Shown piece by piece: positions 3,102 through 23,516 of a stretch of 64,000 bases of DNA (within the stretch, counting starts at the first letter, position 1; every line of letters starts with the position of its first letter). The position numbers were made by a program, and so were the translations under genes. The notes beneath the pieces are model-generated. The model was not told the origin of the DNA. It made no database searches and saw nothing but the letters and a program-made list of their open reading frames with translations. Source of the stretch: Marinobacterium mangrovicola (lineage in GTDB: Bacteria; Pseudomonadota; Gammaproteobacteria; Pseudomonadales; Balneatricaceae). The stretch covers positions 1-64,000 of the forward strand of contig NZ_SMFU01000013.1 of the NCBI RefSeq assembly GCF_004339595.1. Direction: 5' to 3'.

Positions 3102-3105
3102 ATCG

Positions 3106-3230
3106 CGAACACCTATGTATCTTTAAATCAGTAAAAAGAATATATTTCTGATTTATTATCCTTTCTACGGCAATTTAAAATAGTTAAGGATATGTTCGCC
3201 AAGCACAAAAAGGTGTTCGTAATATGAACA
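3106..3230. promoter_or_regulatory. Divergent pcaI/iclR promoter with candidate PcaR-type operator repeats
   Basis: CGAACACC (3106-3113) next to the pcaI start is exactly mirrored by GGTGTTCG (3212-3219) next to the regulator start. A third half-like copy, ATGTTCG, lies near 3192-3198. The right-hand copy extends into GTTCGTAATATGAAC (about 3214-3228), a gapped palindrome that covers the regulator's ATG. PcaU/PcaR proteins bind arrays of such repeats. Assignment as their operator is inference from position and symmetry. Confidence 0.5.
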
Positions 3231-3979
3231 AAAAAGATGTAATAGGCTCTCTTGGCAAGGCCTTATCAGTTCTTGAGTGTTTTTCCGCCGATACACCCCG
3301 CTTAACGATCAGCGAAGCAGCAGGACTTACGGGATTGGACAGGGCGGCAGCAAGGCGCTACCTGATCTCGCTGGAATATTTTGGCTATTTAGAATCGGAT
3401 GGAAAGTTTTACCGGCCCACAATCAAGGTTCTTCGCTTAGGCGTCAGTTCCCTAAGCTCGATGCCCCTCCCCCAAATTGTTCAGCCCTGGCTGGATCAAC
3501 TATCGGAGGAGCTACAACAATCGTGCTCTGTCAGCGTTCTCGACGGTGATGAAATTGTTTACATTGCAAGAGCGAGCCAGAAGCGTGTCATGTCCGTCGG
3601 CTTGATGCCAGGTTCTCGGTTGCCGGCGCACTGCACCTCCATGGGCAGGGTTCTTTTAGCCTACTCCGATAGCACGATCGTCAATGAACTGCTGAGTAAC
3701 ACCAACCTCACCCCCCTAACGCCATACACGCTGAGTAATCTCGACGCGATTAAAGCAGAGCTCGAAAAAGTTAAAAAAGAAGGGTTTGCAGTGGTTGACC
3801 AAGAGGTCGAGCTCGGCTTGCGCTCAATCGCCATCCCTTTATATAGCCTACAAGGAAACGTGGTAGCAGCTCTCAATACCGGCATACCTTCGATCATCGC
3901 CGAGCCGGAACAGATGCGAAAGCTTTACCTCCCCGCGATGATCAAATTTCAAAAAGGGGTGCGCCGTTTCATACACTAG
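3224..3979 (+). CDS. IclR-family regulator, PcaR/PcaU-like
   Basis: 251 residues. An N-terminal winged helix (LTISEAAGLTGLDRAAARRYLISLEYFGYL, residues about 27-57) is followed by an IclR effector domain with the SVGLMPGSRLPAHCTSMGRVLLA signature (about 125-146). Members of this branch respond to protocatechuate or beta-ketoadipate and control pca or pob genes. It is divergent from pcaIJF and separated by 122 bases holding inverted GGTGTTCG repeats, so control of pcaIJF and of itself is likely. The ligand is inferred, not seen. The start ATG lies inside a candidate operator, which suggests autorepression. Confidence 0.85.
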   Translation: MNKKDVIGSLGKALSVLECFSADTPRLTISEAAGLTGLDRAAARRYLISLEYFGYLESDGKFYRPTIKVLRLGVSSLSSMPLPQIVQPWLDQLSEELQQSCSVSVLDGDEIVYIARASQKRVMSVGLMPGSRLPAHCTSMGRVLLAYSDSTIVNELLSNTNLTPLTPYTLSNLDAIKAELEKVKKEGFAVVDQEVELGLRSIAIPLYSLQGNVVAALNTGIPSIIAEPEQMRKLYLPAMIKFQKGVRRFIH

Positions 3980-7948: not shown

Positions 7949-10417
7949 TCAAGAGGCAGAAATACAGGTACTCTCTTTGTTACTCTCCCGGCAATTAAGC
8001 TCTTGGGCCCCGGAACCTAACTCCGTCGAATCGGATGTTTTCTCAGTCTTACGAACTTCGACCTTGAGCAAAAAGCGAGCAAGAGCGGGCAGAAGAATCA
8101 AGGCAGCCAGCATGTTACCGATGAACATGAATGCCAGCATCAGCCCCATATCCGCCTGAAACTTGATAGGACTGAACGTCCAAGTCACCACACCGATCGC
8201 CAAGGTGGCACCGATCAACATCACCACCTTGCCAGTCAGTAGCAACGCCCGATAGTAGGCCTCTGATAGCGAACGCCCTTCCCTAAGCTGATTCAGTGTT
8301 ACCGAAAGGATGTAGAGTGCGTAGTCGACACCTATTCCCACCCCTAGTGCTATAACCGGCAAGGTGGCAACTTTCACGCCGATACCCAGTACGACCATCA
8401 GTGCTTCGGCAAGAATAGAGACAAGAAACAACGGCAACATCGCAACCAACACTGCACGCCAAGAACGGAAAGTCAGCATACACAGCAGGAATACCGCGCC
8501 GTAAACAAGCAGCGTCATTTTGTGCCAGGCTTCACCCACGACAATATTAGTCGCTGCGTTAATACCGGCCGTACCAGCTGCGAGCAGGAACTTCACATCA
8601 TCGGTATTGTTTGCAGCCGCAAACGCCTCCACGTGTTCTACCACACGCGTGAGCGTATCGGCCTCATGGTCACTCAGGTAGACATACAGCGTTAATAGAG
8701 AACAGGAATCGTTATAAAGCCCTCGCGGCGCACTGGAAGTCACTAGGTTTAGCATCTGCTGATTGTGGTTAAACTCATACCATTTGGGGCTACCTTCATT
8801 CAGGCCTGCCAACATACGTCGGTTTAAAAGAGACAGCGTGTTAGTACCCTCGACCCCCTTGAGCTGACGCAGTTCCCATTCCAGCGCATCCACTTTGTTC
8901 AAAGTTGCGTAGTCAGAACAGTAACCCGTCGGCGTCTCGACCATAATTGCAAGTACATCGCTGGAAGCACCATAAACACCGTTCATAAAGGCTATATCTC
9001 TGTTATAGGTACTGTCTGCGCGCAGTTCAGGTGCGCCGGGATCTAGGTCGCCGACCTTAAGCTGAGTCGAAATACTGTATCCGAGACCACCAAACAGAAC
9101 CGCCACGCTTATCGCACATATGGCCCAGCGCTTAGTCGTGAACAGATCCAAAAACCGCCAGACCGGGTGTCTAGCTAATCCGGTCAGGTCCGCCTGCTCC
9201 GCCTTCAGGCTTCGCACGGCGGCGGAGTCACTGACGCCAACATAGCTAAGCAGCACCGGCAGCAAAATCAGGTTTGAAAAGATCAGCAGGCCCACACCGA
9301 GCGATGCGGCCAGAGCCAGCTGCTGAATCGCGCCGATATCGATCACCAGCAATACGGCAAAGCCGACTGCATCAGACAGCAGCGCGGTCACACCGACCAC
9401 AAACAAGCGCCGGAAAGTCAGGCGTGCCGCCACTAACTTGTGCATACCCCGACCCACATCCTGCATGATGCCGTTCATCTTCTGCGAGCCATGACTCAAC
9501 CCTATGGCGAAGACAAGGAAGGGCACCAGGATCGAATAAGGATCTAGGACATAACCCAAGGTTGGAAGCAGACCAAGCAGCCAGGTCACTGCCACCAATG
9601 AGACCAGCACCACCAGCAGCGTCGAACGCCAGCAGCGTGTAAAGGCAAAGATGAAAAGCGATGCGGTGACGATGGTGATGGCAAAGAACAGCATCACTGA
9701 ACTCACGCCCTCAATCAAATCGCTGATCAGCTTGGCGAAACCGGTAACGTGGATGTAAACACCTTGTTCCTCGTACCTGCTGCGCAGCTCCTCAAGCCTG
9801 TCTCCGAGCTCGCCATAATTCAGCCCCTCGCCATCCGGTGTCTGTGCCAACAGCGGTAAGAAGATGATGCTGGAACGATAATCTTCCGCTACTATCTGAC
9901 CCACTTCTCCCGAGCGCGCGATGTTCGCTGCCAGCTGATCCAGTGATCGTTGCGAGCCGTCGTATCCCTCAGGAATAACGGGGCCGCCTTCCAGACCGAA
10001 CTCAGTGACACCAGTCCAACGAGTGTTCGGTGTCCAGAGCGACTTCATCTGACTGCGATTCACACCGGGCAGTAAAAACACTTCGTCATTGAGCTGTCGG
10101 AGCGTTTCCAAGTAGTCGGCGTCGTAAATGCTGCCTCTAGGGTTTTCAACGGCAATGCGAATCACATCACCCAACCCCATCAGATCATTCTCATGCTTTG
10201 TAAAGTTCTGCACATAGGGGTGCGCCTGCGGGATCATCTTTTCGAAGCTGGCTCCCAGTTCCAGTCGCATTGTCTGATAACCCAGTAACACAGTCGCCAA
10301 AGCACATAGCATCAGCACAAACCAACGGTGATTGAAAATCACGCGTTCCAGCATAGACCCGCTTTTAAGGTCGAACCCGCGCAGGTTCTGGTTTATATCT
10401 GTCTTTCTTGTTGTCAT
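7949..10417 (-). CDS. MMPL/RND-superfamily transporter
   Basis: About 822 residues. An N-terminal helix (about 30-48) is followed by a large periplasmic loop, a block of five or six helices (about 220-400), another helix and loop, and a second block (about 630-790). This is the two-fold repeated RND architecture. VGVTALLSDAVGFAVL and the repeat LPVIALGVGIGVDYALYI are the typical proton-relay helix segments. Such lone RND proteins move lipids or hydrophobic molecules across the inner membrane. It is last in a set with YCF48-, DUF1329- and DUF1302-type genes. The ATG at 10417 follows AGAAGG at a good distance and is preferred over a GTG six bases upstream. Confidence 0.85.
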   Translation of the reverse strand: MTTRKTDINQNLRGFDLKSGSMLERVIFNHRWFVLMLCALATVLLGYQTMRLELGASFEKMIPQAHPYVQNFTKHENDLMGLGDVIRIAVENPRGSIYDADYLETLRQLNDEVFLLPGVNRSQMKSLWTPNTRWTGVTEFGLEGGPVIPEGYDGSQRSLDQLAANIARSGEVGQIVAEDYRSSIIFLPLLAQTPDGEGLNYGELGDRLEELRSRYEEQGVYIHVTGFAKLISDLIEGVSSVMLFFAITIVTASLFIFAFTRCWRSTLLVVLVSLVAVTWLLGLLPTLGYVLDPYSILVPFLVFAIGLSHGSQKMNGIMQDVGRGMHKLVAARLTFRRLFVVGVTALLSDAVGFAVLLVIDIGAIQQLALAASLGVGLLIFSNLILLPVLLSYVGVSDSAAVRSLKAEQADLTGLARHPVWRFLDLFTTKRWAICAISVAVLFGGLGYSISTQLKVGDLDPGAPELRADSTYNRDIAFMNGVYGASSDVLAIMVETPTGYCSDYATLNKVDALEWELRQLKGVEGTNTLSLLNRRMLAGLNEGSPKWYEFNHNQQMLNLVTSSAPRGLYNDSCSLLTLYVYLSDHEADTLTRVVEHVEAFAAANNTDDVKFLLAAGTAGINAATNIVVGEAWHKMTLLVYGAVFLLCMLTFRSWRAVLVAMLPLFLVSILAEALMVVLGIGVKVATLPVIALGVGIGVDYALYILSVTLNQLREGRSLSEAYYRALLLTGKVVMLIGATLAIGVVTWTFSPIKFQADMGLMLAFMFIGNMLAALILLPALARFLLKVEVRKTEKTSDSTELGSGAQELNCRESNKESTCISAS

Positions 10418-10431
10418 TTTCACTAACCTTC

Positions 10432-11487
10432 TCAGCGATCAACCTGGCTCACCCGAACACCCTCCATGGTCAGCAGTACTAGCTGGTCCTCACTGAACGC
10501 GAAGGTATTAATGGGTGGGAAACGCTCTCCTTTGGCCGGTTTCAACCTGCCATCGGAAAGCTCAAGCAACACTCCCGCCTGGCTGCCCAGGAGCAGTTCA
10601 CCTGACGCCGATAGGAGTGAGCTGGTGATTGACGCGTCAATAGGGTTTGGCAACGACGTCCAGGTGTCACCGCTATCGTCACTTCGCCAAACATTACCTT
10701 TCAATCCAGCGGCCACAATCGACTCGTCGCTTGGCAACTCAACGGTAAAAAAGCTTCCGCTATAGGGCGTGTGAATCTGAGCCCAGGTGACACCACCATC
10801 CTCTGACAGGGAGACCAATCCCCGCTCGCCTACAGCAACCAAACGATCACCCCGTTTACGAAGTGCATAGAAATGGGACATCTCAGGGTTAGCCATGCGC
10901 GACATAATCGGATGCCAGGAGCCTCCACCGTCACTCGTTTCATATGCCAGCCCATATGCGCCGACGACGATGGCGTGTTCGGGGCTGAGCAGAAGCAGAT
11001 CTAGAAAGGGCTTATCCGCGCCCTCGTCAACTAGGCGCTGAGCTTCCCAAACCGCCCGCTCATCCCCACTTTTCTCAGCTGATTCCAGCGCCAACTTAGC
11101 GGCGCGTTTGCCGTCGAACAGCAGCTGCCAGGTCTCGCCCCCATCTTCTGTTCCGAGAACCACGCCAGCATGGCCAACTGCCATACCTACTTGATCATCA
11201 ATAAAGCGTAAGGCGGTCAAACCAGTACTGACTGGCACCTTTCCCTGCCGCCAGCTCGTACCATTATCGTCGGACAGCAGAACTAAACCGCGCTCCCCCA
11301 CGGCAACAATGGTCGACCCCGCCCTTGCCACGCCAATCATGAATGCCCCTTGCGGATTACCGACTTCAATCGCCGACCGAGCCAACGGCTCGACAACAGC
11401 TTCAGTGCCCAGCGCCACCCCGGAGGTAGCGCTCAGCAATACAGCCACCATGAGCACACGGGGAAAGTTACTGCTATTCAGTCTCAT
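10432..11487 (-). CDS. YCF48/photosystem II stability-factor-like beta-propeller, exported
   Basis: 351 residues with a signal peptide (about 1-27, ending GVALG). The rest consists of repeated units of the type VGERGLVLLSDDNGTSWRQG, VGHAGVVLGTEDGGETW, VGAYGLAYETSDGGGSW, VGERGLVSLSEDGGVTW and SDDSGDTW. These are the Asp-box/YCF48 repeats of a bacterial seven-bladed propeller. The usual role in non-photosynthetic bacteria is unknown, but it recurs between DUF1329 and RND-transporter genes in clusters for hydrophobic substrates. It lies 12 bases after the DUF1329 gene and just before the transporter gene, so it probably acts with them in the periplasm. Confidence 0.82.
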   Translation of the reverse strand: MRLNSSNFPRVLMVAVLLSATSGVALGTEAVVEPLARSAIEVGNPQGAFMIGVARAGSTIVAVGERGLVLLSDDNGTSWRQGKVPVSTGLTALRFIDDQVGMAVGHAGVVLGTEDGGETWQLLFDGKRAAKLALESAEKSGDERAVWEAQRLVDEGADKPFLDLLLLSPEHAIVVGAYGLAYETSDGGGSWHPIMSRMANPEMSHFYALRKRGDRLVAVGERGLVSLSEDGGVTWAQIHTPYSGSFFTVELPSDESIVAAGLKGNVWRSDDSGDTWTSLPNPIDASITSSLLSASGELLLGSQAGVLLELSDGRLKPAKGERFPPINTFAFSEDQLVLLTMEGVRVSQVDR

Positions 11488-11499
11488 TCCTATGACCCC

Positions 11500-12867
11500 T
11501 TAACGGAAGCTGCTGCCTGCCATGGCATCGGGCGTATACATTATGTCCGAGCGAGGTTTTACCAGGTATTCAAACTGATTTTCTTTCTCATTGTTTATGT
11601 GAGCAAAGAACGCTGAGCCCTCTATCAGGTCATACATACCGAAAGCTCCCATGGAAATGCCCGGCAAATCAGGGGCCACGAACGTACCAGCCCACAGCAC
11701 TTTCCACAGCTGACCATTGGCGTCCCAGCGATCGCCTAGCACGCAGATCCAGGTATCTTCGTCGCAGTAATATCGGCTCTTCGAAACCTGGTGACGCTCC
11801 CCGTCGCGCAAGTTGGCTTCGACGACCCATACACGATGCTTTTCCCAGCGCATGTAGTCCGGGTTCCAGTGATGCGTGCCTAATACATCATCGTCGGAGG
11901 TCGGCTGCATAAAACCGTTGGTGTTGTAGGGGATAAACATCTCCTTCTTACCGACGATATTCCAGTCGAAACGATCCAGCTTACCGGTCCAGACATAGAG
12001 TTCGTCAAAGGTCATCTCACCTGCCGACGCTGGCTGAGGGGTATCGCAACAGGCATTCGGCAGGCGACGCACACGACGCTGACCTGTCAAGTAAACCCAG
12101 GTCTGGGTGTTGTCCTGATCAAGATACTCATGGGCTAGAAGCGCTTGGCCAGCACGGATCGGCGGACCTATATTTTCGATCTTCACTTTCCAAAACGGCT
12201 GGTTATCTTCGACAAACTTTTCCAAGGTGTTGTCGTGGAAGTAATACGGTACCTGCTCATTCACCTCAGCATCGGAGATCAGCACTCGACGACCATCGTC
12301 CAGGATCTGGTACCAGTTGTCCTTATGGATCAGGTCACCGCCGCGCCAGCGAAGCTGGTGGTTCCACATCACTTCAGCGCCCGACTTAGGGATAGGGAAA
12401 GGAATGCCCCCAAATGCATTTTCAGGCACATTACCCTTCATCGTTGAACGGATGGCATTTTCGTAGGTGTTGTCATAAACCCACTGCGGCGCCGCTGCCG
12501 TGCGATGCGTATTGTAAACATCGATACGGAAAGTATCGGGGTACTTTCTCAATAGAGCTTCAGTACCCGGAGTCAGATTATCGGTATACTCCGCCATATT
12601 CTCAGCGGTGATGCTGAACTGCGGGCTCTCGTCTGCAAACGGGTCTGCACGGCGACCGCCGCGTTCATAATCAGGGTTCGGATCGGTAAACCCTCCGTTC
12701 CATTCTGGAATACTTCCATCGGCATTACCGGCGCGCTCAGCACCAAAAGGCGTAAGCTCACTCTTGAGATGCAATGCCTCCTCGGCCGTGACAGCAGCAA
12801 AGGAGATGTTGCCGAAACTCAGGGCCGATATAAGTGCGACCAATGCGTATTTGTTTCTAATAATCAT
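11500..12867 (-). CDS. DUF1329 family outer-membrane-associated protein
   Basis: 455 residues with a signal peptide (about 1-24, cleavage near SFAA). The mature start, with AEEALHLKSELTPFGAERAGN and then IPEWNGG, is the hallmark of DUF1329 proteins, a LolB-related lipoprotein-binding-like fold found with DUF1302 proteins. Two close cysteines occur at NACCDTP near residue 268. It lies 15 bases after the DUF1302 gene, so the two are cotranscribed. A biochemical role is not established for the family; a part in moving hydrophobic compounds across the envelope is inferred from recurrent clustering. Confidence 0.87.
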   Translation of the reverse strand: MIIRNKYALVALISALSFGNISFAAVTAEEALHLKSELTPFGAERAGNADGSIPEWNGGFTDPNPDYERGGRRADPFADESPQFSITAENMAEYTDNLTPGTEALLRKYPDTFRIDVYNTHRTAAAPQWVYDNTYENAIRSTMKGNVPENAFGGIPFPIPKSGAEVMWNHQLRWRGGDLIHKDNWYQILDDGRRVLISDAEVNEQVPYYFHDNTLEKFVEDNQPFWKVKIENIGPPIRAGQALLAHEYLDQDNTQTWVYLTGQRRVRRLPNACCDTPQPASAGEMTFDELYVWTGKLDRFDWNIVGKKEMFIPYNTNGFMQPTSDDDVLGTHHWNPDYMRWEKHRVWVVEANLRDGERHQVSKSRYYCDEDTWICVLGDRWDANGQLWKVLWAGTFVAPDLPGISMGAFGMYDLIEGSAFFAHINNEKENQFEYLVKPRSDIMYTPDAMAGSSFR

Positions 12868-12882
12868 AATTAATCTCCGTGA

Positions 12883-14547
12883 TCAGAAACGACGGCTGAT
12901 AGTGAAGGAGAGGAAGTCGCGATCCTTCCTGGCCTGCTTATAGCTAAAGGCTGGATCGCCGAAGGGGTCATCTGCGCGCTCGACCAAATGGCCATCGCTT
13001 GCCCCAAAGAAGTTGGTATAGGCCAGATTAATCTGCCAAGTGTTTAGGTAGGTGCCGTTCAGACCAAGGGTAAAATCGCCACCGCCTTCTGGCGGATACG
13101 CCAAACTAAAGCCTGAACGTGAGCCTTTGGGCGAGTAGCCAACACCGATAGGCACGCCAAGATCGAGGCCGGAGACAACCTGTCGGTAAACTGGTTCGAA
13201 TACGAAGCGCATCGCAACGGCATCGCGACTGGCATTAGGATCCATAGCAGCGCAGTTTTCGTCGCAGTCTAGTACCCGATTCCACGCGACTTCACCAACG
13301 AAGGTTGCTTCCTGCCAGAGCGGCCCTGGATCCAGCAACCAGATCGCTGACAGGTTAATATGGGCTGTATCACCCACCGCATACCCCGGATTATCCTTAT
13401 TGTCGGTGGCCGGCAGACCAAGCGCCGAAAAATCATGGGCACCAGACGATACCAGCGCCTGATCTTTGCGAAGTGACGCTTCGGCCGCTAAGTTCACAGA
13501 GCCAAAGCTTCGGCTAACACTGACGCCGTAAGCGGTGGTGTCTTCGTGATAAGTCAGATAGTAGCTCTCGGGCCCGGAAGGACCGATGTTGACGACCTGC
13601 TGGTAGTTTTTGTCATGGAAACGTACGACGTAGAACCCTAGGTCGGTATAACCCAGGCGCCAGCGCAGTTGCAGACCGAATTGACCGCCGTCGTCAGCCT
13701 CCTCCTCGCGGGTGAGTGGAATCGATGTGAATGGACCAACCCACATGTTCTCGGCTCCAGTAACACCTGTATCCTGAGTCGACATGTAGCTGCCGACCGC
13801 TGGCAGACGGTTCGGCTCGAAACCAAACTGGTAATAGGCACCAAGGGTGATATCGGGGTTAAGCTGGAAGTCTACGCCGATCTGCGGCACCGGCAGCACA
13901 AACTCTTTGGCTTCGGCTGTCGGATCTCGCATAAGTCGATCGATATCGAAGGCGTTCTGAGCGCCGGCAATACCGTTATCGGCAAAGAATAGACTCTCCC
14001 CCCAAACCGATGCGAACTGCCCGGCTCTGAAACGAAGAACCGAATTCCCAATATTGGTGCGGCCGAAAACAAAAGCGTCTCGCAACTCAATATCCCGACC
14101 CAGAATCTCTTCGGTGTCGTCGGTAAACTCGGCGGCGTCATAGCCTGAAGATACATGGTTGGGAATAGCCGAGCCGCCGGGCGGGAATCCGGAGTTGTCG
14201 TTGCTCTGGTTATAGATCTCGTCATACCAGGCAATACCGCTGATGCGACCACCCCAGCCGTTTTCATAAACAACATCAAGCTCACTGAGCAACTCGACGC
14301 GGTTGGATACTATGCCCTTATCGAAGTTAGCATTACCGTCGTCGATATTGGCGCTCTTGTTGTTCTCACCGTTGAAAAGCAGGTTTGAATCCTGATCATT
14401 CAATCTGTACATAGCGTTGTACTGAACATTATTAGTCCAGTTGAACCGCGGGCTACCAAAGTCCCCCATGGCATGGGCCGGGTTTCCCTGCACAGCAACT
14501 GCAATCAGGAAAGATAGCGGTAATATCCTGTTTTTATTACATTCCAT
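12883..14547 (-). CDS. DUF1302 family outer-membrane beta-barrel-like protein
   Basis: About 554 residues. The ATG at 14547 is preferred because AGAGGTGG lies just upstream; an in-frame GTG nine bases earlier is possible. A signal peptide ends at PAHA, followed by FGSPRFNWTNNVQYNAMYRLN. Alternating aromatic and polar residues and a terminal FTISRRF strand ending in Phe fit an outer-membrane barrel. DUF1302 proteins are almost always encoded beside DUF1329 proteins in proteobacteria that degrade steroids, aromatics and other hydrophobic compounds. It probably takes up, or inserts near, such a substrate. It opens the four-gene envelope block. Confidence 0.87.
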   Translation of the reverse strand: MECNKNRILPLSFLIAVAVQGNPAHAMGDFGSPRFNWTNNVQYNAMYRLNDQDSNLLFNGENNKSANIDDGNANFDKGIVSNRVELLSELDVVYENGWGGRISGIAWYDEIYNQSNDNSGFPPGGSAIPNHVSSGYDAAEFTDDTEEILGRDIELRDAFVFGRTNIGNSVLRFRAGQFASVWGESLFFADNGIAGAQNAFDIDRLMRDPTAEAKEFVLPVPQIGVDFQLNPDITLGAYYQFGFEPNRLPAVGSYMSTQDTGVTGAENMWVGPFTSIPLTREEEADDGGQFGLQLRWRLGYTDLGFYVVRFHDKNYQQVVNIGPSGPESYYLTYHEDTTAYGVSVSRSFGSVNLAAEASLRKDQALVSSGAHDFSALGLPATDNKDNPGYAVGDTAHINLSAIWLLDPGPLWQEATFVGEVAWNRVLDCDENCAAMDPNASRDAVAMRFVFEPVYRQVVSGLDLGVPIGVGYSPKGSRSGFSLAYPPEGGGDFTLGLNGTYLNTWQINLAYTNFFGASDGHLVERADDPFGDPAFSYKQARKDRDFLSFTISRRF

Positions 14548-14696
14548 CCTGTCCACCTCTGGTTATTTTTATTGTGAAACTGATCTACGGGCGCGAGTTA
14601 GCCCCCGTAGAGGAACTTATATCTCCACGTACTCGTTCGATCTCGTAATGGAACCCTCTCGACTGAGAGCGCTCCTCTTAATCCGACAAAGGTCGG

Positions 14697-16382
14697 CTAG
14701 TGGTCGACTGACACAAACGGCAGTACAAGACGCGACAAGTGCTTAGCATCTCGATAGACCGTGTGTGTTACGGATCGCCCGACAGGCAGATGGAATGCAT
14801 CTGGGGGTAGCAGAGAGTTATGATCGTCAACTAGGGGCTCGTTACACATGAGCTCAACAACCAGCTTGTGGCCAACCCGGAAGTCATTGGCAAAGGGGTA
14901 GATCCGGATCACATATTCATTGATGGTGCCAGGTTCGACCGGCTCGCTACGGGTATGTGGGTGGTAGGGGTTACCCTCGCTGGTACGTTCATCAAGCTCA
15001 TTGTGTGATGCCTTGAGGAAGCCGGTCGTAACCAACTGACGCTTACCCGAAGGTGCCTCATCCCAGAACCGCAGGATAAAGTTGGTATCGGGCTGATCGA
15101 TCTCGACATACAGATGGGCTGCACCTACACCGTGTATCGAAGTCACTTTTTCGAAGGGCTCGGTTGCCCATGAGAGCTTTTCTACTTTGTCGGTTATGGT
15201 GAGTGGCGCCTGAAAAAAACCTTCCGGGTGTGCAACCTCAACACCGTACGGCTCGGGCTCGAAAGCCAACTTACCACGTGATCTCAGGTAGAGGGGCCGA
15301 TACTCAACGTCCTTCACAGGCCATTGCTCACCTGTTGCCCAGTGCCGTGTACCTTCGACATGAACTTTGACGCTAGGCTCATCCATGATGCCGTTATCAA
15401 TACCCTTCAGCCAGTAGTCGTACCAGCGGAACATCGTGTCATGTTCGTCCACCCAAGGGCGCGTTTGCATCGGTGGGTAAGGCCCAATCTCAAGCTTCTT
15501 GGGACAATTAAGGACATCAAATAGCTCGATAGTGCCATCAAGCGTCCAACCGCGCCCTTGGTTGATCTGCAAATACACCGGGATATCGATGTTTTTGGCT
15601 AGATTGATTGGGTTCTGTTCCTCATACCACTCGCCATCGACTTCGTTGGTGATGATGTCGAACCAGGACTCGTGATGAATTGGGTAATTGAGCACGTGTA
15701 CCAGGTTGGGCCAAGCGGCCACATCGGGATCTGCCAAGCGCTCAGCTACGCGTCGCTTAACCTCTTCCTCAGAGTAGGTCTCCAGCATGCGAGACTTATG
15801 CCGGTGCGTGAATGCCCAACCTGAGTCTCCCCCGCGTCCCTCGCGCGCTGCGCGTGGCATAAACCACATAACACCACCGTGGTAGGTCGTCTCATAGAAA
15901 TCGAAATGACCTCCACTGACGAAGATAGCCTTAAGACTGGGTGGGCGCTCAGATGCAGCAAATACCTGCATCGAGCCGAAGTAAGAAATCCCTATCATGC
16001 CAACGACGCCGTTACACCAGGGTTGAGCAGCCACCCACTCGATGAAATCGTAGGCATCCTGGCCCAGAGGTACCCCGCCGGCATTGTAGTTACCAATGTG
16101 TTCGCCCTCCGAACCGCCTGACCCGCGTACATCGCCAATGACATGCACATAGCCTTCTTTTACGACGCGAGAAATGTCACCCGCTTCTATACATCCATCC
16201 CACAAGGGAGATGGACGTTTCTGGGGAGGAATAGTCAGCGCCAGGGCTTGTAACTCTTTGCCATACGGGCTCAGTGCAACCAGGGCAGGACGCGGCTCGT
16301 CGCCTTCTGCATGGTAGGCATCAGCAGCCAGATGAACGCCGTCACGCATTGGGACATGCAGGTCTTTGTGAACTACCATCAT
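14697..16382 (-). CDS. CocE/NonD family hydrolase (X-Pro dipeptidyl-peptidase S15 type)
   Basis: 561 residues. The N-terminal alpha/beta-hydrolase domain has the nucleophile elbow GMIGISYFGS (Ser near residue 121), and GDVRGSGGSEGE before it builds the oxyanion region. The C-terminal jelly-roll typical of CocE begins around residue 310. Members cleave esters such as cocaine or beta-lactam side-chain esters. The start overlaps the stop of the MBL gene by 4 bases, so it is the last gene of the six-gene operon. No signal peptide is seen, so it acts in the cytoplasm. The natural ester is unknown. Confidence 0.87.
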   Translation of the reverse strand: MMVVHKDLHVPMRDGVHLAADAYHAEGDEPRPALVALSPYGKELQALALTIPPQKRPSPLWDGCIEAGDISRVVKEGYVHVIGDVRGSGGSEGEHIGNYNAGGVPLGQDAYDFIEWVAAQPWCNGVVGMIGISYFGSMQVFAASERPPSLKAIFVSGGHFDFYETTYHGGVMWFMPRAAREGRGGDSGWAFTHRHKSRMLETYSEEEVKRRVAERLADPDVAAWPNLVHVLNYPIHHESWFDIITNEVDGEWYEEQNPINLAKNIDIPVYLQINQGRGWTLDGTIELFDVLNCPKKLEIGPYPPMQTRPWVDEHDTMFRWYDYWLKGIDNGIMDEPSVKVHVEGTRHWATGEQWPVKDVEYRPLYLRSRGKLAFEPEPYGVEVAHPEGFFQAPLTITDKVEKLSWATEPFEKVTSIHGVGAAHLYVEIDQPDTNFILRFWDEAPSGKRQLVTTGFLKASHNELDERTSEGNPYHPHTRSEPVEPGTINEYVIRIYPFANDFRVGHKLVVELMCNEPLVDDHNSLLPPDAFHLPVGRSVTHTVYRDAKHLSRLVLPFVSVDH

Positions 16383-17314
16383 GATCTATAACCTTTATTA
16401 AAATAGCCGTGCATCGTGGTGAAGAATGGCGATGGCTCCAGCGTCGGATCACCGTCGTAGCGCAGATAATCAGCAATACAACAAAACGGAGAACACAGCG
16501 CTTTGGCTATTTCTGCGCCATCGATACCCACCTCATCGGTGACATTACGAACACGGGCCTCTATATCGAGACTCTCCTGAATTTTCTCTGTGGCCTGCTC
16601 TCGGTTGAGCTCCACCCCCAGAGGTTTTTCACCCTGGCTTCGATATGGATGTCCGAGGAATAAGCGGTTTGGCTTAACCTGATCACGCAGGTGCAGCAGG
16701 CTGGCACGATAGGCGTCAGGATCCGCATAGCTCGGGAATCCATTGGCCGCCCCGTGAATCTGAACGGCATCGCCCACAAAGACGTCACCCTGGCCCTTGA
16801 CCTCGTAGGCAACCGAACCTTCAGTGTGACCCGGCACGGAATGGACCTTGATAGTCACATCCGGACCAAGTGACAGCTCGTCGCCATCACGCACCACTAT
16901 ATGAGGTTCCATTTCGCCAGAGATCGCCGCGAGACAAGCTGCCATCACCTTGGACTCGCCGTCGCTATCATTGATGTAACGCCCCCTCGCAGAGAGGTAT
17001 TCATCAACATGCGCACGTCGAGACTGAAGAAACGGAACATCGGCCTCGTGGATAACTACCTTGGCTTTGCGACCCGTCATCTCCCAGAGTGCATACGCAC
17101 CACCGATGTGGTCGATGTGCCCGTGGGTGAGGAGTATCCAACGCACATCTTCGATGCGCCGTCCCAGCTTCTCCAGGCCCGACGCAATGCCACCGGCGGG
17201 CGAGCTGGCGATACCGGTATCGATAATTGCCGGCTCGTTACCATCGATAAAAAAGCTGTACAGACCGAAACGCCCCCACTCCGAGTACAGCGAATGAATA
17301 TCTACGGCACTCAT
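16379..17314 (-). CDS. MBL-fold metallohydrolase, glyoxalase II/lactonase-like
   Basis: 311 residues. Zinc ligands appear as LLTHGHIDHIGG (HxHxDH, about residues 64-69), VPGHTEGSV, VGDAVQ and FLGHPY, a complete set for a dinuclear site. About 80 residues after the last ligand form a helical extension. The family covers glyoxalase II, lactonases and related thioester or ester hydrolases. Both ends overlap neighbours by 4 bases (esterase upstream, CocE-type gene downstream), so it belongs to the same pathway. The CobW protein of this cluster could help supply its metal. Confidence 0.85.
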   Translation of the reverse strand: MSAVDIHSLYSEWGRFGLYSFFIDGNEPAIIDTGIASSPAGGIASGLEKLGRRIEDVRWILLTHGHIDHIGGAYALWEMTGRKAKVVIHEADVPFLQSRRAHVDEYLSARGRYINDSDGESKVMAACLAAISGEMEPHIVVRDGDELSLGPDVTIKVHSVPGHTEGSVAYEVKGQGDVFVGDAVQIHGAANGFPSYADPDAYRASLLHLRDQVKPNRLFLGHPYRSQGEKPLGVELNREQATEKIQESLDIEARVRNVTDEVGIDGAEIAKALCSPFCCIADYLRYDGDPTLEPSPFFTTMHGYFNKGYRS

Positions 17315-18249
17315 CCCTGCCCCCTCAGAAACGCCGCCGTCTCTGCAAACACGCCGTGAAACTCAGGCAACCAAGAGAAGTGCTGAACAAATCCATGGCC
17401 AGCCGACTCGTAGCGCCGCACCGTTACCGACACGCCGGCTTCGGCCAGTTTTTGACCATATACTTCACCTTCGTCGCGAAGCGGATCGCATTCAGCGGTG
17501 ACGATGAGCGCGGGGGGTAGTCCAGCAAGATCCTGTCGCTTGATCGGCGACACCAGAGGGTCGGCAGGATCGGCACCACTATCGAGGTAGAAAGCGTTGA
17601 ATGGTTTCAGCATGGCTGTCTCCAATCCATTACCCACCGCATTGGTCTTCAGTGACTCGTAGCGCTCAGTATCAAAGTCAAGATCGAGCCCCGGGTAATA
17701 AAGCACCTGGTGGGTGATAGATGTCAGTCCCTCGTCCAAAGCCTTTGCTGCAATCGCAGCGGCAAAACCGGCGCCCGAGCTATCACCGGCGACGGCCAAT
17801 GTTTGCCCATCCCAGCCGATCCCATCACTCTCTTCCTGCCCATGTTCCGCGACCCATTGCACCACGGCGTAGCAATCGCTCAGACCAGCGGGAAAAGCGT
17901 GTTCAGGCGCGAGACGATAGCCAACTGAAATAACGACACAGTCAGTCGAATTGGCAAGTTCGCGAGCCACGTGATCATGCGTATTAAGGCTGCCGAGAAA
18001 GCCCGCTCCGCCGTGGAAATAAACCAACGCAGGATGGGTTTTTGCTGCCGACGGCGTGTAGACGCGCACCGGCACATCGCCTATTGCTGTCGATACAGCC
18101 CTGTCGATCACCGAATGCACCGGCAGACGTTTTTCCAGCGAAGGTACATTGCTTTCATCAACCGCTCGCATCGCTTCTGGGTTAAGCGGCCCGGGAGGCG
18201 GCGCGGGCAACTCGGCGATGAACTTAGCTACAGTAGGATGTAATGGCAT
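17311..18249 (-). CDS. Alpha/beta hydrolase of the hormone-sensitive-lipase family
   Basis: About 312 residues. The oxyanion motif is YFHGGAGFLGS, the nucleophile is in AGDSSGAGFA (GDSxG), and Asp and His occur in AECDPLRDEG and SAGHGFVQ. It lacks a signal peptide. The ATG at 18249 is chosen because it starts one base after the FAD-monooxygenase stop and precedes PLHPTVAKFI; the frame continues further upstream inside that gene. It hydrolyses a short acyl ester, probably an intermediate or the entry substrate of the operon. Confidence 0.88.
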   Translation of the reverse strand: MPLHPTVAKFIAELPAPPPGPLNPEAMRAVDESNVPSLEKRLPVHSVIDRAVSTAIGDVPVRVYTPSAAKTHPALVYFHGGAGFLGSLNTHDHVARELANSTDCVVISVGYRLAPEHAFPAGLSDCYAVVQWVAEHGQEESDGIGWDGQTLAVAGDSSGAGFAAAIAAKALDEGLTSITHQVLYYPGLDLDFDTERYESLKTNAVGNGLETAMLKPFNAFYLDSGADPADPLVSPIKRQDLAGLPPALIVTAECDPLRDEGEVYGQKLAEAGVSVTVRRYESAGHGFVQHFSWLPEFHGVFAETAAFLRGQG

Positions 18250-18250
18250 A

Positions 18251-19369
18251 TCAGCTCCGTGCGGCAATCTGGCCCTGGTGCTGATTGGGGAAGACATCGT
18301 TGACCTCATCTTCGCTCCAGCCTTGGCGGGACTCGTGTTGTAGGACGTCTGTTACGGGCTTGCGATTTGCCTGATAGTGCGAAAGTGCGTCAGAAACAGA
18401 ATTGGCCTCTTTGAGGGAGTCAGCGAGAGCCCCAGCATCGAGAACAGCAGAGTTGGCGCCCTGACCTTGGTGATGGCACATTGCATGAGCTGCATCGCCA
18501 ACCAGAACCACTGAGTTAGAATGCCAGTTATCAACCGGGTCGATATCGTAAACGGCGCGCAGGTTAACCTGGTCCATATCAAGACCTTCGGTGATATCTA
18601 TCAAGCGCTGATCAAAGCCCTCGACCACTTTAAGTAACTGCTCTTTACTCGAAACCGGTGCCGGCGTGGAGTCGGTGGCGAGGCAGGTAACGTCAAAAGA
18701 CACCTCGTTACGATGGAGCAGCGGGAGCAAATAAATCTTGGTCCCACGCCCCATGTACATACGCAGATTTCCGTCGTCCACCAGACCATAGGTGTCAGCC
18801 ATAGGTATCACTACTCGGTAAGCGTGCTCACCAGCAAAAACAGGGGGCTTATCACTAAACAACTGATTACGAACTTGAGAGCGAATACCATCAGCACCAA
18901 CAATTAAATCAGCATTCACTGTTACTCCATTGTCAAACACAGCGGTAGCACTAGAGCCGTTATCAATGATCTTGCTGAGGCGGTGCCCAAGTTTCACCAT
19001 TCCTGCCGGCAGCACGTTCAGCAAAGCATCAATAAAGTCACCGCGGTGGACAAAATGGGTATCAGCAGAAAAAGCGTCTTTTTCGGGCCACTCTTCCATA
19101 GCAATGCGCTGGCTATCTGCGGTCAGAATTTCAAAATAATCACTTGGTGAAGTTACCGCATCAATCGCATCAAATATCCCAAGCTGGCGGAACTGGTCCA
19201 TAGTTGAGGGACGTAACCCAATACCTGCCCCTACCTCCTTAACCTCTTGCGCTTGCTCATATACAGTGACTTTTGCGCCCATCAGATGGAGAGCATATGC
19301 AGTAGTTGCACCGGCATACCCAGCACCGATTACAGCTACATTTAGGTCTTTTAAGGCTTCTGGTTTCAT
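18251..19369 (-). CDS. FAD-dependent aromatic-ring monooxygenase, salicylate-hydroxylase family
   Basis: 372 residues of group A flavoprotein monooxygenase. The Rossmann motif is VAVIGAGYAGATTAYAL (about 10-26), the DG motif is LIVGADGIRSQVR (about 160) and the FAD/ribityl motif is VVLVGDAAHAMCHHQGQGAN (about 290-309). These enzymes hydroxylate or decarboxylatively hydroxylate aromatic or N-heteroaromatic acids with NAD(P)H and O2. It is in the middle of the operon, between the phosphotriesterase-like genes and the esterase. The position suggests that an aromatic or enol ring is oxidised before or after ester hydrolysis. Exact substrate not inferable. Confidence 0.87.
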   Translation of the reverse strand: MKPEALKDLNVAVIGAGYAGATTAYALHLMGAKVTVYEQAQEVKEVGAGIGLRPSTMDQFRQLGIFDAIDAVTSPSDYFEILTADSQRIAMEEWPEKDAFSADTHFVHRGDFIDALLNVLPAGMVKLGHRLSKIIDNGSSATAVFDNGVTVNADLIVGADGIRSQVRNQLFSDKPPVFAGEHAYRVVIPMADTYGLVDDGNLRMYMGRGTKIYLLPLLHRNEVSFDVTCLATDSTPAPVSSKEQLLKVVEGFDQRLIDITEGLDMDQVNLRAVYDIDPVDNWHSNSVVLVGDAAHAMCHHQGQGANSAVLDAGALADSLKEANSVSDALSHYQANRKPVTDVLQHESRQGWSEDEVNDVFPNQHQGQIAARS

Positions 19370-19407: not shown

Positions 19408-20382
19408 TTAATCGGAGATCGGCTGCAACGTCAGGAAGTCTGCTGTGTTGTGCACAAATAGCTGATCGATTAAAGAATCATCGATACCTTCCTCGCGGAG
19501 GTCTGGAATCAGTTGTTCAAATAGGTAGTTAACAGTGTGTCCCTTCACACCCGGCCAGCCGAGCGGAGAGCAGTTCGCATCTGCCGACGCAAGAACTTGA
19601 TCGACCAAACCACTGTTGATGAAACGAAGGAAATGCTTGAGGCGTTCCGCACGAGCCCTCCCCCAAAATGGCGGATCAGGCAATTCCAGGTCGTAGCCAA
19701 AAGTATCAAAACCAATTCGACCGCCTGCATCGAGGAGGGCTTTTTCGTTGATCTTGCCTTGGCTTACGCCATCATCTGCATGCCCAAACAACACCCGATG
19801 GCAAGGAAGGCCCTCTTCAGCAAAAATGTTCAAAGCAGGTTCACAGTCGACCGCTAGATGAGTAAAAATCGGCGCCCCTGTAATCTTTGATGCCCTGGCA
19901 GCGGCACGATAAATACGTAGATCCAGCTCCTTCATTTTAAAACCACGGCTCACGCCGACTTTGATGATCCCGGCTTTTGCCCCGGAGTCACCGATACCCA
20001 CGGTGATCTCGTGAACAAACTGATCAGTCAAATACTCGACACTTGCTCTCTCAAAGAAAGGTAGAGCGGTATCGCCACCGACAAAGCCAGTACTGGCCAC
20101 AATGTGCACACCGGTCTTTGCCGATAGAGATTTGTAGTAATCGATATCCCGGCCATTGCAGATACCAGTAGCTTCTACAAAAGTTGCTGCGCCCCACTTC
20201 TGCGTGTTTTCGTGGAATTTCCGCAGCTTAGGTACTGTCTCTTCATAACGCTCTTCGGGTGTTTTCCACCAGCGACTGTCGAGTTCACAACCCGGCATTC
20301 CGTAACCTATATGCTCATGAATGGCAACGAAGCCGAGTTCCGCAGCCGAAATAGTGCCAAGCACTGTGTTAACGCGAGTCAT
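19408..20382 (-). CDS. Phosphotriesterase-like metal-dependent hydrolase with intact metal site
   Basis: 324 residues, amidohydrolase superfamily. The expected binuclear site is complete: HEH (IHEHIGYG, about residue 22), the Lys likely carbamylated in GIIKVGVS (about 142), His in IFTHLAV, His in LFGHADD and Asp in ASADAN. Family members include organophosphate hydrolases and lactonases; a lactonase activity is more probable in a carbon-degradation operon. It overlaps by 4 bases the upstream gene for a paralogue that lacks all these ligands, so the two proteins may form a pair. Two zinc, iron or manganese ions are needed. Confidence 0.87.
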   Translation of the reverse strand: MTRVNTVLGTISAAELGFVAIHEHIGYGMPGCELDSRWWKTPEERYEETVPKLRKFHENTQKWGAATFVEATGICNGRDIDYYKSLSAKTGVHIVASTGFVGGDTALPFFERASVEYLTDQFVHEITVGIGDSGAKAGIIKVGVSRGFKMKELDLRIYRAAARASKITGAPIFTHLAVDCEPALNIFAEEGLPCHRVLFGHADDGVSQGKINEKALLDAGGRIGFDTFGYDLELPDPPFWGRARAERLKHFLRFINSGLVDQVLASADANCSPLGWPGVKGHTVNYLFEQLIPDLREEGIDDSLIDQLFVHNTADFLTLQPISD

Positions 20383-21440
20383 TTAACTTCTCCACTTACA
20401 CTCAGCAGGTGCGCTGCGTTGGTGGTCAGCATCATTGCGACGTTTTCTTCGGATACCCCTGCATCCAGCAGCATGGGGACAAAGTGAGTAAGGACATTAC
20501 TGTATGGAAGGTCATTGCCAGGCTCGCCAAACGACACGCCTGTGGCACTTGAAGACAGAGTAATGCGATCTACATAGCCCGCATCGATCAGCTCCTTAAC
20601 CAAAGCAACACGCTCTGAATCATCAAGGTAATTTGAAGAGGTGGACCCTATGTGATCGATACAAACATGAGCACCGGCATTAACGACCTGCATAGGCCAG
20701 CCATTTTCCACGGCGTCACGACGATCCATTCCTGCCATAACAATTCGCTGCAAGTCGAGAGATTCATCACGGGCTAGCTGCATCTCAGCGATAGCATCAG
20801 ACCCACACCGGATAAAAACTGGCACCCCATATGCAGCCCCTGCACGAGCAGCGCCGCGAACTAAGCTGGCATCAGTGGGTGTCATCCCTTCCTCTGTAAC
20901 AGCGGTACAAATCATTCCAGCTGGAGCTCGGCGCTCCAGACGGGGAACGACCATGCCGTCGTTCACCTCACGGCCAAAGAGTTCGGCGAACTTTTGCGCT
21001 GGCCACGGAGTAGGTGGATTGGTCTGCGGTGTTAGGAAGTATCCGCCAAGCATAGCCTCCGGCCCCTGGCCCGTGGTGGCGACGATATGAACACCAGTGG
21101 CACGCGATAAAGCTTCATACAAACGTAGGTCGCGACCGTGAAACATACCGGTAGCATCAACGATTGTTCCACCACCTGCCGCCTTGAACTCCAGAAGCTT
21201 AGCTTCCAGTGCATCAAAGACATCAGCACGATCAATCCTGATGTCGTAAGCGTATTCCGCTCCCGGCAAGACATTCATCAACGATTCACTGAGAAGCGTC
21301 ACGCCCAACTCATTGGAGCGGACGGAACCAAGCACGGTATTGACTGACGCCACGGTGGGGTTGTTGGAAGGGCGATCGAGAAAGAGAGATGTAAACGGCG
21401 GGACCGACTCAGATGCCCCCTTGCTGTGTTTAAGGCACAT
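20379..21440 (-). CDS. Phosphotriesterase-like protein without metal ligands (probable pseudoenzyme)
   Basis: About 353 residues, aligning along its whole length with the next gene's product (VNTVLG, then the DATG and GRD segments, then GVHIVATTG). Every metal ligand is changed: HEH becomes SES (LLSESLM), the bridging Lys becomes Cys (GMICTAV), FTH becomes FIR, FGH becomes MAG and the Asp of ASAD becomes Ser (LSSS). It therefore should not bind the catalytic metals. The ATG at 21440 has AAGGAGG 6-12 bases upstream; the frame is open to 21485. It is first in the operon, 4 bases overlapping the active paralogue. Likely a structural or regulatory partner; a different chemistry cannot be ruled out. 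Confidence 0.82.
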   Translation of the reverse strand: MCLKHSKGASESVPPFTSLFLDRPSNNPTVASVNTVLGSVRSNELGVTLLSESLMNVLPGAEYAYDIRIDRADVFDALEAKLLEFKAAGGGTIVDATGMFHGRDLRLYEALSRATGVHIVATTGQGPEAMLGGYFLTPQTNPPTPWPAQKFAELFGREVNDGMVVPRLERRAPAGMICTAVTEEGMTPTDASLVRGAARAGAAYGVPVFIRCGSDAIAEMQLARDESLDLQRIVMAGMDRRDAVENGWPMQVVNAGAHVCIDHIGSTSSNYLDDSERVALVKELIDAGYVDRITLSSSATGVSFGEPGNDLPYSNVLTHFVPMLLDAGVSEENVAMMLTTNAAHLLSVSGEVK

Positions 21441-21557: not shown

Positions 21558-21573
21558 TATTGTTATAACAATA
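21558..21573. promoter_or_regulatory. Perfect palindromic operator, TATTGTTATAACAATA
   Basis: A perfect 16-base palindrome in the gap between the GntR gene and the phosphotriesterase-like operon, 118 bases before its start codon. The shape (AT-rich, full two-fold symmetry) fits a UTRA-type GntR regulator. A second near-copy lies 41 bases further from the operon, about four helical turns. Confidence 0.65.
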
Positions 21574-21598: not shown

Positions 21599-21614
21599 TA
21601 TTGTTATGACAATA
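21599..21614. promoter_or_regulatory. Second palindromic operator copy, TATTGTTATGACAATA
   Basis: Differs from the first site at one base. The centre-to-centre spacing of 41 bases would put two bound dimers on the same DNA face. It lies just downstream of the GntR stop codon (21637) and upstream of the operon. Confidence 0.6.
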
Positions 21615-21636: not shown

Positions 21637-22386
21637 TCAACCGCCAAGGCCAAACGAATACTTAAAGTCTTCTGCGCGATGCACCGCACGCCTCCATCCT
21701 CCTGGTTGCCCATCATCGGTGTACATCGTTGTCTCGGCGACAAGAACCGGTGTCCCTACACTCAATTCCAAAGCTTCAGCTTCTTCCTCGTTCGCACCGG
21801 AAGCCCAGATGTTCTGCGTTCCCTTTGTGAATTTCAATCCAAGCTTTCGCTCGATCAAACCAAATACAGAACCTAGACGCTCAAGTTCTTCTATCTCTGG
21901 AAAAAAATCTGGCGGCGTATAGAGGTAGCTCGAAACCCAGGCAAGAGGCGTACCTTTAACGAAAATTACCCGTTTGAGGTGCAGCATTTTCGCCGACTTC
22001 CCAAGACCAAGAGCTTCCGTAACCTCCTCAGGTGCCTCGACCCGTTCAAGCCCAACAATCCGAGAGTTCGACTTTAACCCCTGCTCTGCCAAGTATTTAC
22101 TAATTCCACCAAGCTCCATAGCAGGAGGTAGGCTGACATTGAGACGACGAACTGGAAAAGTACCTTTAGCCCTGTGCCGCACTACATATCCCTCATCCTC
22201 CATCTCCTTCAAAGCTTGCCGAATCGGTGCTCGACTAACCTGAAAACGCTTCATCAGCGTATTCTCGGTGAGAACAAGCTCGGATACCTTATCGATATCC
22301 CTCATCTCGTGAATAAGGATTTCCTTGATCTGACTGTACAGTGGTACCGAAGAGCTGCGGTCGAGTAGACGATTCATTACGTACAT
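21637..22386 (-). CDS. GntR-family regulator with UTRA domain (HutC subfamily)
   Basis: 249 residues. The N-terminal winged helix is seen in SVPLYSQIKEILIHEM and in LMKRFQVSRAPIRQALKEMEDEGYVVR (about residues 45-70). The C-terminal UTRA ligand domain covers about 95-240, with MLHLKRVIFVKGTPLAWVSSYL as its central strand block. HutC-type members are usually repressors released by a pathway metabolite. It is encoded between cobW and the hydrolase operon on the same strand. Palindromes in front of the operon, cobW and the P450 are its probable targets. ATG codons at 22386 and 22377 are both possible starts. Confidence 0.87.
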   Translation of the reverse strand: MYVMNRLLDRSSSVPLYSQIKEILIHEMRDIDKVSELVLTENTLMKRFQVSRAPIRQALKEMEDEGYVVRHRAKGTFPVRRLNVSLPPAMELGGISKYLAEQGLKSNSRIVGLERVEAPEEVTEALGLGKSAKMLHLKRVIFVKGTPLAWVSSYLYTPPDFFPEIEELERLGSVFGLIERKLGLKFTKGTQNIWASGANEEEAEALELSVGTPVLVAETTMYTDDGQPGGWRRAVHRAEDFKYSFGLGG

Positions 22387-22435: not shown

Positions 22436-23479
22436 TCAAGCGAGAGATGCATCTAATCCTTCTTGCAGTATTTTGTTAGGTAGATCCACCCCAATAAACA
22501 CCATTTTACTTTGCCGTACTTCGTCTGGCTTCCACTCTGGACCGAGATCGCTCCCCATAACTTGATGTACACCTTGGAAAATGACTTTCCGGTCTGTTCC
22601 CTTCATGTCCAATACCCCCTTATAGCGCAGCATTTTTGGCCCATGCACTTCAACAACGGCACCGAAAAAATCTTCAAGACGAGTAGGGTCGAAGGGTCGA
22701 TTCGCCCTGTAGACGAAGCTTTTGACATCATCATCGTGATGGTGGTGACTACCATGCTCATGCTTATGCGAGGAATGACCACACTGCTCATCGTGATCAT
22801 GATGACTGTCCGCCCCGCCTTCCTCGCTGAGAAAGTTCGGGTCGATATCAAGTTTGGCGTTAAGGTTAAAGCCTTGCAGGTCTAGAACCTTTGTTAATTG
22901 TGTTTCACCAAAGTGCACAGCCTCGACAGGCGCCCTTGGATTCATTTTTTTGAGTCTGGGAATTAGAGCATCCAACACTTCCTCATCCACAAGATCTGAT
23001 TTACTGACAAAAATCTGGTCTGCAAAACCAACCTGTCTACGCGCCTCTTGACGATCGTTGAGCTGTTGAGCTGCATGTTTAGCATCTACGAGCGTGATTA
23101 TGGAATCCAGCATATAGCTCTCGGCTACATCCTCATCCATGAAAAAAGTCTGAGCTACTGGGCCAGGATCGGCAACTCCCGTCGTTTCAATGATGACCCG
23201 ATCAAAATCCAGCAAGCCATCATGCCTTTTCGCCGCGAGCATCGTCAGCGTCTCGCGCAGATCTTCTCGAATGGTGCAACAGATGCAGCCATTACTCATC
23301 TGAATTATCTGCTCTTCGCTGTCAGCTATGAGGATATCATTGTCTATATTCTCCTCGCCGAATTCGTTTTCGATGACAGCGATTTTCTGCCCATGAGCCT
23401 CGCTGAGGACTCGCTTGAGCAGAGTGGTTTTACCCGACCCAAGAAAGCCTGTAAGTATCGTGGCCGAAATAATCTTCAT
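22436..23479 (-). CDS. CobW/G3E family GTPase, metallochaperone with His-rich loop
   Basis: 347 residues. The P-loop GFLGSGKTTLL (about residue 9), the CXCC metal motif NGCICCTIRED, SKSDLVD and the C-terminal CobW_C domain (about 250-335) are present. A histidine-rich insert around residue 220 (HHDHDEQ, then HSSHKHEHGSHHHHDDD) is typical of zinc-handling members. These proteins load metal into target enzymes or manage zinc stress. Shared operator sequences and the same strand link it to the metalloenzymes (phosphotriesterase-like, MBL) of this cluster, so it may deliver their metal. The ATG at 23479 is preferred; the frame starts at 23494. Confidence 0.87.
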   Translation of the reverse strand: MKIISATILTGFLGSGKTTLLKRVLSEAHGQKIAVIENEFGEENIDNDILIADSEEQIIQMSNGCICCTIREDLRETLTMLAAKRHDGLLDFDRVIIETTGVADPGPVAQTFFMDEDVAESYMLDSIITLVDAKHAAQQLNDRQEARRQVGFADQIFVSKSDLVDEEVLDALIPRLKKMNPRAPVEAVHFGETQLTKVLDLQGFNLNAKLDIDPNFLSEEGGADSHHDHDEQCGHSSHKHEHGSHHHHDDDVKSFVYRANRPFDPTRLEDFFGAVVEVHGPKMLRYKGVLDMKGTDRKVIFQGVHQVMGSDLGPEWKPDEVRQSKMVFIGVDLPNKILQEGLDASLA

Positions 23480-23500
23480 ATTCACCCCTACCAATCATCA

Positions 23501-23516
23501 TATTATTATAACATTA
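23501..23516. promoter_or_regulatory. Candidate GntR operator before cobW
   Basis: TATTATTATAACATTA matches 14 of 16 positions of the palindrome at 21558-21573 and shares TATTATAACATT exactly with the P450 promoter. It lies 22 bases before the chosen cobW start codon, where a bound repressor would block transcription or initiation. Confidence 0.5.

Follow-up and report, generated by a model that had tools for sequence, protein, structure and literature searches.

Why should a bacterium keep, immediately in front of an intact phosphotriesterase-family gene, a second member of the family that has lost its metal-binding residues, and what might such a protein do? The question is raised by two adjacent genes of Marinobacterium mangrovicola, which we analysed within a stretch of 64,000 nucleotides (the window). 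A sequence-only reading had described the product of the upstream gene as a phosphotriesterase-like protein without any metal ligand, and had proposed that it partners its intact neighbour.

20379..21440, minus strand: pseudo-phosphotriesterase P0001, 353 aa, first gene of the catabolic run; PF02126 128.6 bits, ligand positions SSCRGS
19408..20382, minus strand: intact phosphotriesterase-family partner P0002, 324 aa; PF02126 151.9 bits, cut-off 22.4

The gene boundaries proved correct as first read: the P0001 frame starts with an ATG at 21440, preceded by an AAGGAGG ribosome site, and ends with a TGA at 20379–20381, with ATGA common to this stop and the start codon of the gene that follows, confirming the 4-base overlap. 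Profile alignment to the phosphotriesterase family places both proteins far above the PF02126 cut-off, and by its full-length score P0001 is a member, with residues 42–345 lying on positions 3–296 of the 298-position profile. The two proteins are 27% identical and are the only two matches in a search of their own genome. Phages gave five weak matches of 24–26% identity and at most 62 bits. Like the established members of PF02126 (PTE, the phosphotriesterase-like lactonases GkaP and SsoPox, and E. coli PHP), P0001 also matches solved structures in sequence and keeps framework positions of the family (V33, T35, V36, G38, D95, G102, R103, T123, G124 and D262, among others). It differs from them in that the window protein lacks all six metal ligands, in an insert after the TG motif, and in adjoining an intact sister in the loci sampled.

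The fate of the metal site was followed in an alignment of 96 family sequences, in which H22, H24, K141, H175, H201 and D268 of P0002 face S51, S53, C178, R211, G237 and S298 of P0001.

21282..21290, minus strand: codons of S51-E52-S53, equivalent to the HxH motif (alignment to P0002 H22/H24 and to PHP, 4lef)
20907..20909, minus strand: codon of C178, equivalent to the bridging Lys (96-sequence alignment)
20808..20810, minus strand: codon of R211, equivalent to the third His (alignment); Arg in 20 of 25 members
20730..20732, minus strand: codon of G237, equivalent to the fourth His (alignment); Gly in 22 of 25
20547..20549, minus strand: codon of S298, equivalent to the metal Asp (alignment); N 13, S 7, G 3, D 1, R 1 of 25

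A phmmer alignment of P0001 to E. coli PHP (4lef), run separately, matches the same positions, with the bridging Glu of PHP, at what we take to be its position, facing T179. The substitutions originally read by eye (HEH to SES, Lys to Cys, His to Arg, His to Gly, Asp to Ser) are therefore exact. P0001 has seven histidines (5, 101, 118, 258, 263, 319 and 344), none of them in an HxH motif, and the possibility that the ligands are present in shifted places was rejected because HxH is missing and the two alignments agree.

To describe the clade to which P0001 belongs, hereafter the dead clade, we counted residues in 25 near-complete proteins from Pseudomonadota and Actinomycetota, including that of the window and leaving out two loci that carry only pieces of the gene (L022 and L023). 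The two-metal site (HxH, bridging Lys or Glu, two His and Asp) is incomplete in P0001 and in all 25, with the second His, the Lys, the third His and the fourth His each lost in every member (the third-His position reads R in 20, Q in three, G in one and V in one). Relatives that retain catalytic residues do exist: the first His is kept in 21 of 25, with Ser in three and Arg in one, and one of these His-keepers also has the Asp, so that the claimed loss of every ligand applies to the window protein (none of six) and not to its clade. No member retains more than two of the six.

The neighbour, by contrast with its dead sister, is intact as first supposed: all six ligands of P0002 are invariant in 15 aligned sequences and likewise in all 24 full-length proteins of its own clade. 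Among 47 other family proteins, 39 carry the full ligand set, four are degenerate (HHEYQG twice, HHV-GG and --VEGG) and four read --EHHD, the first-motif columns of these last being empty in the alignment. Three of the degenerate proteins, from Actinomycetes (L049, L050 and L111; HHEYQG twice and HHV-GG), keep HxH and have lost the later ligands, and they cluster in a quick tree. The fourth comes from Candidatus Leucobacter sulfamidivorax (L034:203-2520), where a second dead/intact pair, distant in sequence, is found; its dead gene overlaps a Glu-type intact gene by 4 bases, and the dead protein scores 27.3 bits against PF02126 with ligands --VEGG and empty first-motif columns in the alignment. 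This pair hints that the family has perhaps taken the dead/intact route more than once.

How widely the dead clade occurs was assessed in two ways. A scan of a contig collection with six short peptides of P0001, which detects close relatives only, returned 21 loci, comprising Paracoccus salipaludis (76% identity), a piece in a Rhodobacteraceae MAG (90%), 18 Actinomycetota (49–60%) and a piece in a nineteenth (64%); a further relative, at 75% identity, lies on a plasmid of Caballeronia insecticola. Alignment-based searches of sampled genomes found the clade in one of 193 relatives (the own genome), five of 394 Actinomycetes, one of 295 members of the Paracoccus family (Paracoccus itself) and one of 398 genomes of the phylum (again the own genome). 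These searches scored at most 11 candidates per genome among the 193 relatives, at most seven in the Paracoccus family and at most five in the Actinomycetes and the phylum, with an E limit of 1e-30 for the 193 relatives and 1e-40 otherwise, so that distant members may escape. With so few hits, the dead clade appears rare and patchy, and it has probably spread by transfer.

In the loci sampled, the dead gene does not stand alone. In all 24 loci with both genes at full length, the window included, it lies directly before the intact gene on the same strand, with a spacing that ranges from the 4-base overlap to 56 bases, measured from its stop to where the match of the following protein begins. 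The 25th dead gene belongs to Microbacterium elymi (L008), in which a frameshift, either genuine or introduced in assembly, breaks the following intact-clade gene (L008:9007-9961) and the dead gene is open; this locus was excluded wherever an intact-clade gene was required. Of the 394 Actinomycetes sampled, five carry the dead clade (E≤1e-40), and it is these five that carry the intact clade as well (E≤1e-178), and no others; one of them (G194) was the search centre with the pair known beforehand, the remaining four being new. With the limit relaxed to 1e-40, the intact profile also picks up the dead sisters in two of these five genomes and, at 1e-41 in two further Actinomycete genomes, intact members from another branch of the tree.

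Maximum-likelihood trees under a site-mixture model place the origin of the pair. In both a quick tree (13 of 25 dead and 13 of 24 intact rows with all 47 others) and a careful tree (nine, nine and 26), the dead and intact clades are sisters, with support of 99 and 97/96, respectively; each clade is monophyletic with support of 100, and both are long-stemmed. The sister relationship points to an old duplication, and descent of the dead gene from a distant family member was rejected, since its sister is the clade of its operon neighbour. The simplest reading is that, after a duplication, one of the copies lost its metal site and that the spread to two phyla came later. The first-His position is Ser in all three full-length proteobacterial dead members and Arg in L016; most simply, and subject to the branching order at the base of the dead clade, the first His was lost later in the proteobacterial branch and again in L016.

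The dead gene is under purifying selection. In six of ten close pairs tried, those with dS below 0.4, three of which share members so that not all are independent, dN/dS is 0.17–0.34 for the dead gene and 0.02–0.27 for the intact one; the remaining four pairs, with larger or saturated dS, gave 0.067, 0.200 and 0.208 for the dead gene and one no value. These values indicate that the dead gene is kept, under a constraint somewhat weaker than that on its partner in the six pairs. Mean protein distances are 0.346 for the dead protein, 0.222 for its intact partner and 0.341 for the FAD monooxygenase encoded next to them. P0001 accordingly has the properties by which a maintained pseudoenzyme is recognised, namely lost catalytic residues in a protein that is otherwise conserved and selected.

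Conservation within the dead clade also extends to features of its own. At 102 positions at least 24 of the 25 proteins are identical, and 48 of these positions, among them R240 and a PRxERR stretch, are unlike the most frequent state, counting gaps, of the partner and of other intact members.

20985..21077, minus strand: residues 122–152, nearly invariant new block TGxGPE..LGGYFLTPQTNPPTPWPA with insert; 25 of its 31 positions shared by 24 or more of the 25 members

A density as high as that of this block was reached in none of 5000 shuffles. It contains an insert around TPQTNPPTPW that the partner does not have, and it comes after the TG motif, where lactonase-like intact rows read TG-I-Y-x-Y. 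The block presumably falls in the loop that in SsoPox bears Y97 and I98. SsoPox residues 97 and 98 are described as lining a groove at the chain interface that joins both active sites, and the authors suggest that the dimer might be indispensable for activity (PMC7084321). At position 240, at least 24 of 25 dead proteins have Arg and the partner has an invariant Asp. We take this Asp to be a second-shell residue. With R211 (20 of 25) and R240 at these places, the former metal pocket is probably basic now.

The genes around the pair suggest the context in which it works. Downstream, on the same strand, follow:

18251..19369, minus strand: FAD monooxygenase, conserved next gene; nearest solved relatives tropone 2-monooxygenase and 6-hydroxynicotinate 3-monooxygenase
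17311..18309, minus strand: alpha/beta hydrolase of the hormone-sensitive-lipase (HSL) type (profile match), conserved
16379..17314, minus strand: metallo-beta-lactamase-fold (MBL) hydrolase (profile match), conserved in the majority of loci
14697..16382, minus strand: CocE/NonD family hydrolase (TIGR00976 224.6 bits, cut-off 66.3), conserved in the majority of loci

Upstream lie:

21558..21573, no strand: perfect palindrome TATTGTTATAACAATA, candidate operator (palindrome search of the window)
21599..21614, no strand: second copy of the palindrome, one mismatch (same search)
21637..22386, minus strand: GntR/UTRA regulator (profile match); homologue upstream of the pair in eight of 22 related loci, two of them partial
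22436..23494, minus strand: CobW/COG0523-type GTPase (putative metal chaperone), matched at the corresponding place in Paracoccus by a homologue of 76%

The dead copy, described as first in its operon, is indeed first among the catabolic genes; upstream of it, on the same strand, stand the regulator and then the CobW-type gene. Of 20 loci with a near-complete dead gene (L003–L021 and L065), all have the genes for the FAD monooxygenase and the alpha/beta hydrolase, 17 have the MBL-fold gene (on the opposite strand in three, and cut by the contig edge in one more locus) and 17 the CocE gene, one of these partial in the best segment. The operon is likely under the control of the GntR/UTRA regulator. 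The window has three matches to the palindrome TATTGTTATAACAATA when three mismatches or fewer are allowed, against 0.16 expected, and a search upstream of eight relatives did not find a shared operator. The third and weaker copy, with two mismatches, lies at 23501–23516, just upstream of the CobW-type gene. That gene has counterparts in two of the 22 related loci, Paracoccus (76%) and, in pieces, the Rhodobacteraceae MAG, and no match in the other 20. Further along lies a P450 gene; among solved structures its product is closest to CYP199 enzymes, and 12 of the 22 related loci hold homologues at 47–56% (two partial), a raw count that carries no correction for the background rate of P450s.

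At 506–3979 the window holds genes for the final part of the beta-ketoadipate route, namely pcaF and pcaJ/I-type CoA transferase subunits, together with a regulator of the PcaR/PcaU/PobR type. Genes for an MMPL-type transporter, a YCF48-like protein, DUF1329 and DUF1302 follow one another on the same strand at 7949–14556, and none of the 22 related loci gave a match to them at the chosen cut-off. This context indicates that the operon is probably catabolic, and it probably breaks down an aromatic or an ester/lactone compound. The solved relatives of its enzymes merely bound the kind of substrate, and a literature search for this gene set, judged by the titles among those listed, found nothing that would name it.

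What the dead protein does is answered by two claims of different strength. That it is a maintained pseudoenzyme accompanying an intact paralogue is well supported by gene order, co-occurrence, selection and phylogeny. That it serves as a non-catalytic subunit of its neighbour, a conserved pseudoenzyme from an old duplication that would contact its partner directly, is the explanation we favour and hold to be slightly more probable than its opposite. A metal-less sister kept beside the intact gene in two phyla suggests a non-catalytic helper subunit over a decaying copy. Of the partnership first proposed, the part that stands is that the dead copy is maintained and travels with its paralogue (24 of 24 loci, the same five of 394 genomes, dN/dS, trees); that the two form a heteromer, or that the dead one is a sensor, is inferred. 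In a mirror-distance test of the dead protein against the operon proteins, over 16 of 23 loci, the correlation was 0.81 for dead and intact, below 0.85 for dead and HSL-type and 0.89 for dead and MBL-fold proteins, so the pair was not singled out. Pairing alone likewise fails to single out these two, as the operon genes travel together, the FAD monooxygenase and the alpha/beta hydrolase in every one of the 20 loci.

In the mechanism we propose, a common ancestor was probably duplicated, and the copy that has lost its two-metal site would be kept as the non-catalytic subunit of the other. The dead and intact chains may pair across the groove where family dimers form, with the new loop and the basic pocket of the dead chain stabilising or shaping the partner's site; the Arg residues that have replaced metal ligands may bind an acidic group on the substrate. 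The intact chain would then be one of four hydrolases that act with a flavin monooxygenase in a catabolic operon. More tentatively, at somewhat short of an even chance, we suggest a heteromeric enzyme of the phosphotriesterase family with an obligatory dead subunit, common to Pseudomonadota and Actinomycetota; the invariant insert of that subunit would complete the living partner's pocket or gate it.

Such arrangements have precedents. Pseudo-dihydroorotase and the phosphotriesterases belong to one superfamily of amidohydrolase type. The pseudo-dihydroorotase of Pseudomonas (pDHO, PyrC') is reported to be inactive, yet needed by aspartate transcarbamoylase, and is thus also an inactive amidohydrolase-type relative serving a catalytic partner; that partner is a transcarbamoylase of another fold, whereas the neighbour of P0001, to which it would bind, is its own intact paralogue (PMC7053772). 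The pairing of the gene with that of a catalytic partner, in 24 of 24 loci and the same five of 394 genomes, is what a pDHO-type subunit would show. In Trypanosoma brucei, the prozyme of S-adenosylmethionine decarboxylase is a dead paralogue in a functional complex with its living sister, a different enzyme in a eukaryote, and the complex is demonstrated there, where for P0001 and P0002 it is presumed (PMC5201418).

Loss of ligands is no proof of inactivity: one dihydroorotase paralogue that lacks the zinc residues is reportedly active (PMC2770081). The main rival, a metal-free enzyme or binding protein, is for this reason a serious one. P0001 would then have built a new active site in the old barrel and would carry out its own step of the same pathway, which we consider unlikely, although the conserved E52, E128, R167, R170, R171 and R240, the Arg that most members have in place of a former ligand, the 48 dead-specific positions with R240 and PRxERR, and purifying selection would all fit such a site. 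An independent enzyme could separate from its neighbour, and in the sampled loci the dead gene was not found without its intact sister; this argument is weak, however, because the FAD monooxygenase gene is an equally constant neighbour. The variable third-His position (R, Q, G or V) also speaks against a metal-free enzyme.

It is improbable that P0001 is instead a ligand sensor, which would be no subunit but would bind a pathway compound and pass a signal on, for example to the intact enzyme or to the GntR regulator. The retained framework and the regulator gene upstream, with two palindromes in between, are compatible with this, but the GntR protein has a UTRA ligand domain of its own, and 14 of the 22 related loci, where the dead gene or a piece of it is present, yielded no homologue of that protein at the chosen cut-off. 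Marginally less probable still is an assembly factor that helps to fold or metallate the intact enzyme together with the CobW-type GTPase, the linkage of a COG0523-type gene in the window, Paracoccus and the Rhodobacteraceae MAG being offset by its absence from the other 20 related loci. A decaying duplicate without function is very improbable, and a pseudogene was rejected: the catalytic residues are lost and the dead protein is more variable than its partner, but the frames are open in two phyla down to about 50% identity, dN/dS is well below 1, a new motif is conserved, and the operon's FAD monooxygenase is equally variable.

Literature searches that combined 'phosphotriesterase' with 'pseudoenzyme' or with 'COG0523' found nothing in the collection covered, and papers returned for phosphotriesterase with catalytically inactive and paralog concern other subjects, judging by their titles. 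Dead/live paralogue pairs are already known; one within the phosphotriesterase family, conserved across phyla, appears to be new. Phosphotriesterases are model enzymes for evolution and for the breakdown of organophosphates and quorum signals, and they are generally regarded as homodimers that need no other subunit. If a dead sister is conserved and selected, helper subunits would have evolved in this family too; such a sister would explain why the intact enzyme alone might look weak when expressed, and would provide a natural case for testing how a two-metal barrel turns into a partner that does not catalyse.
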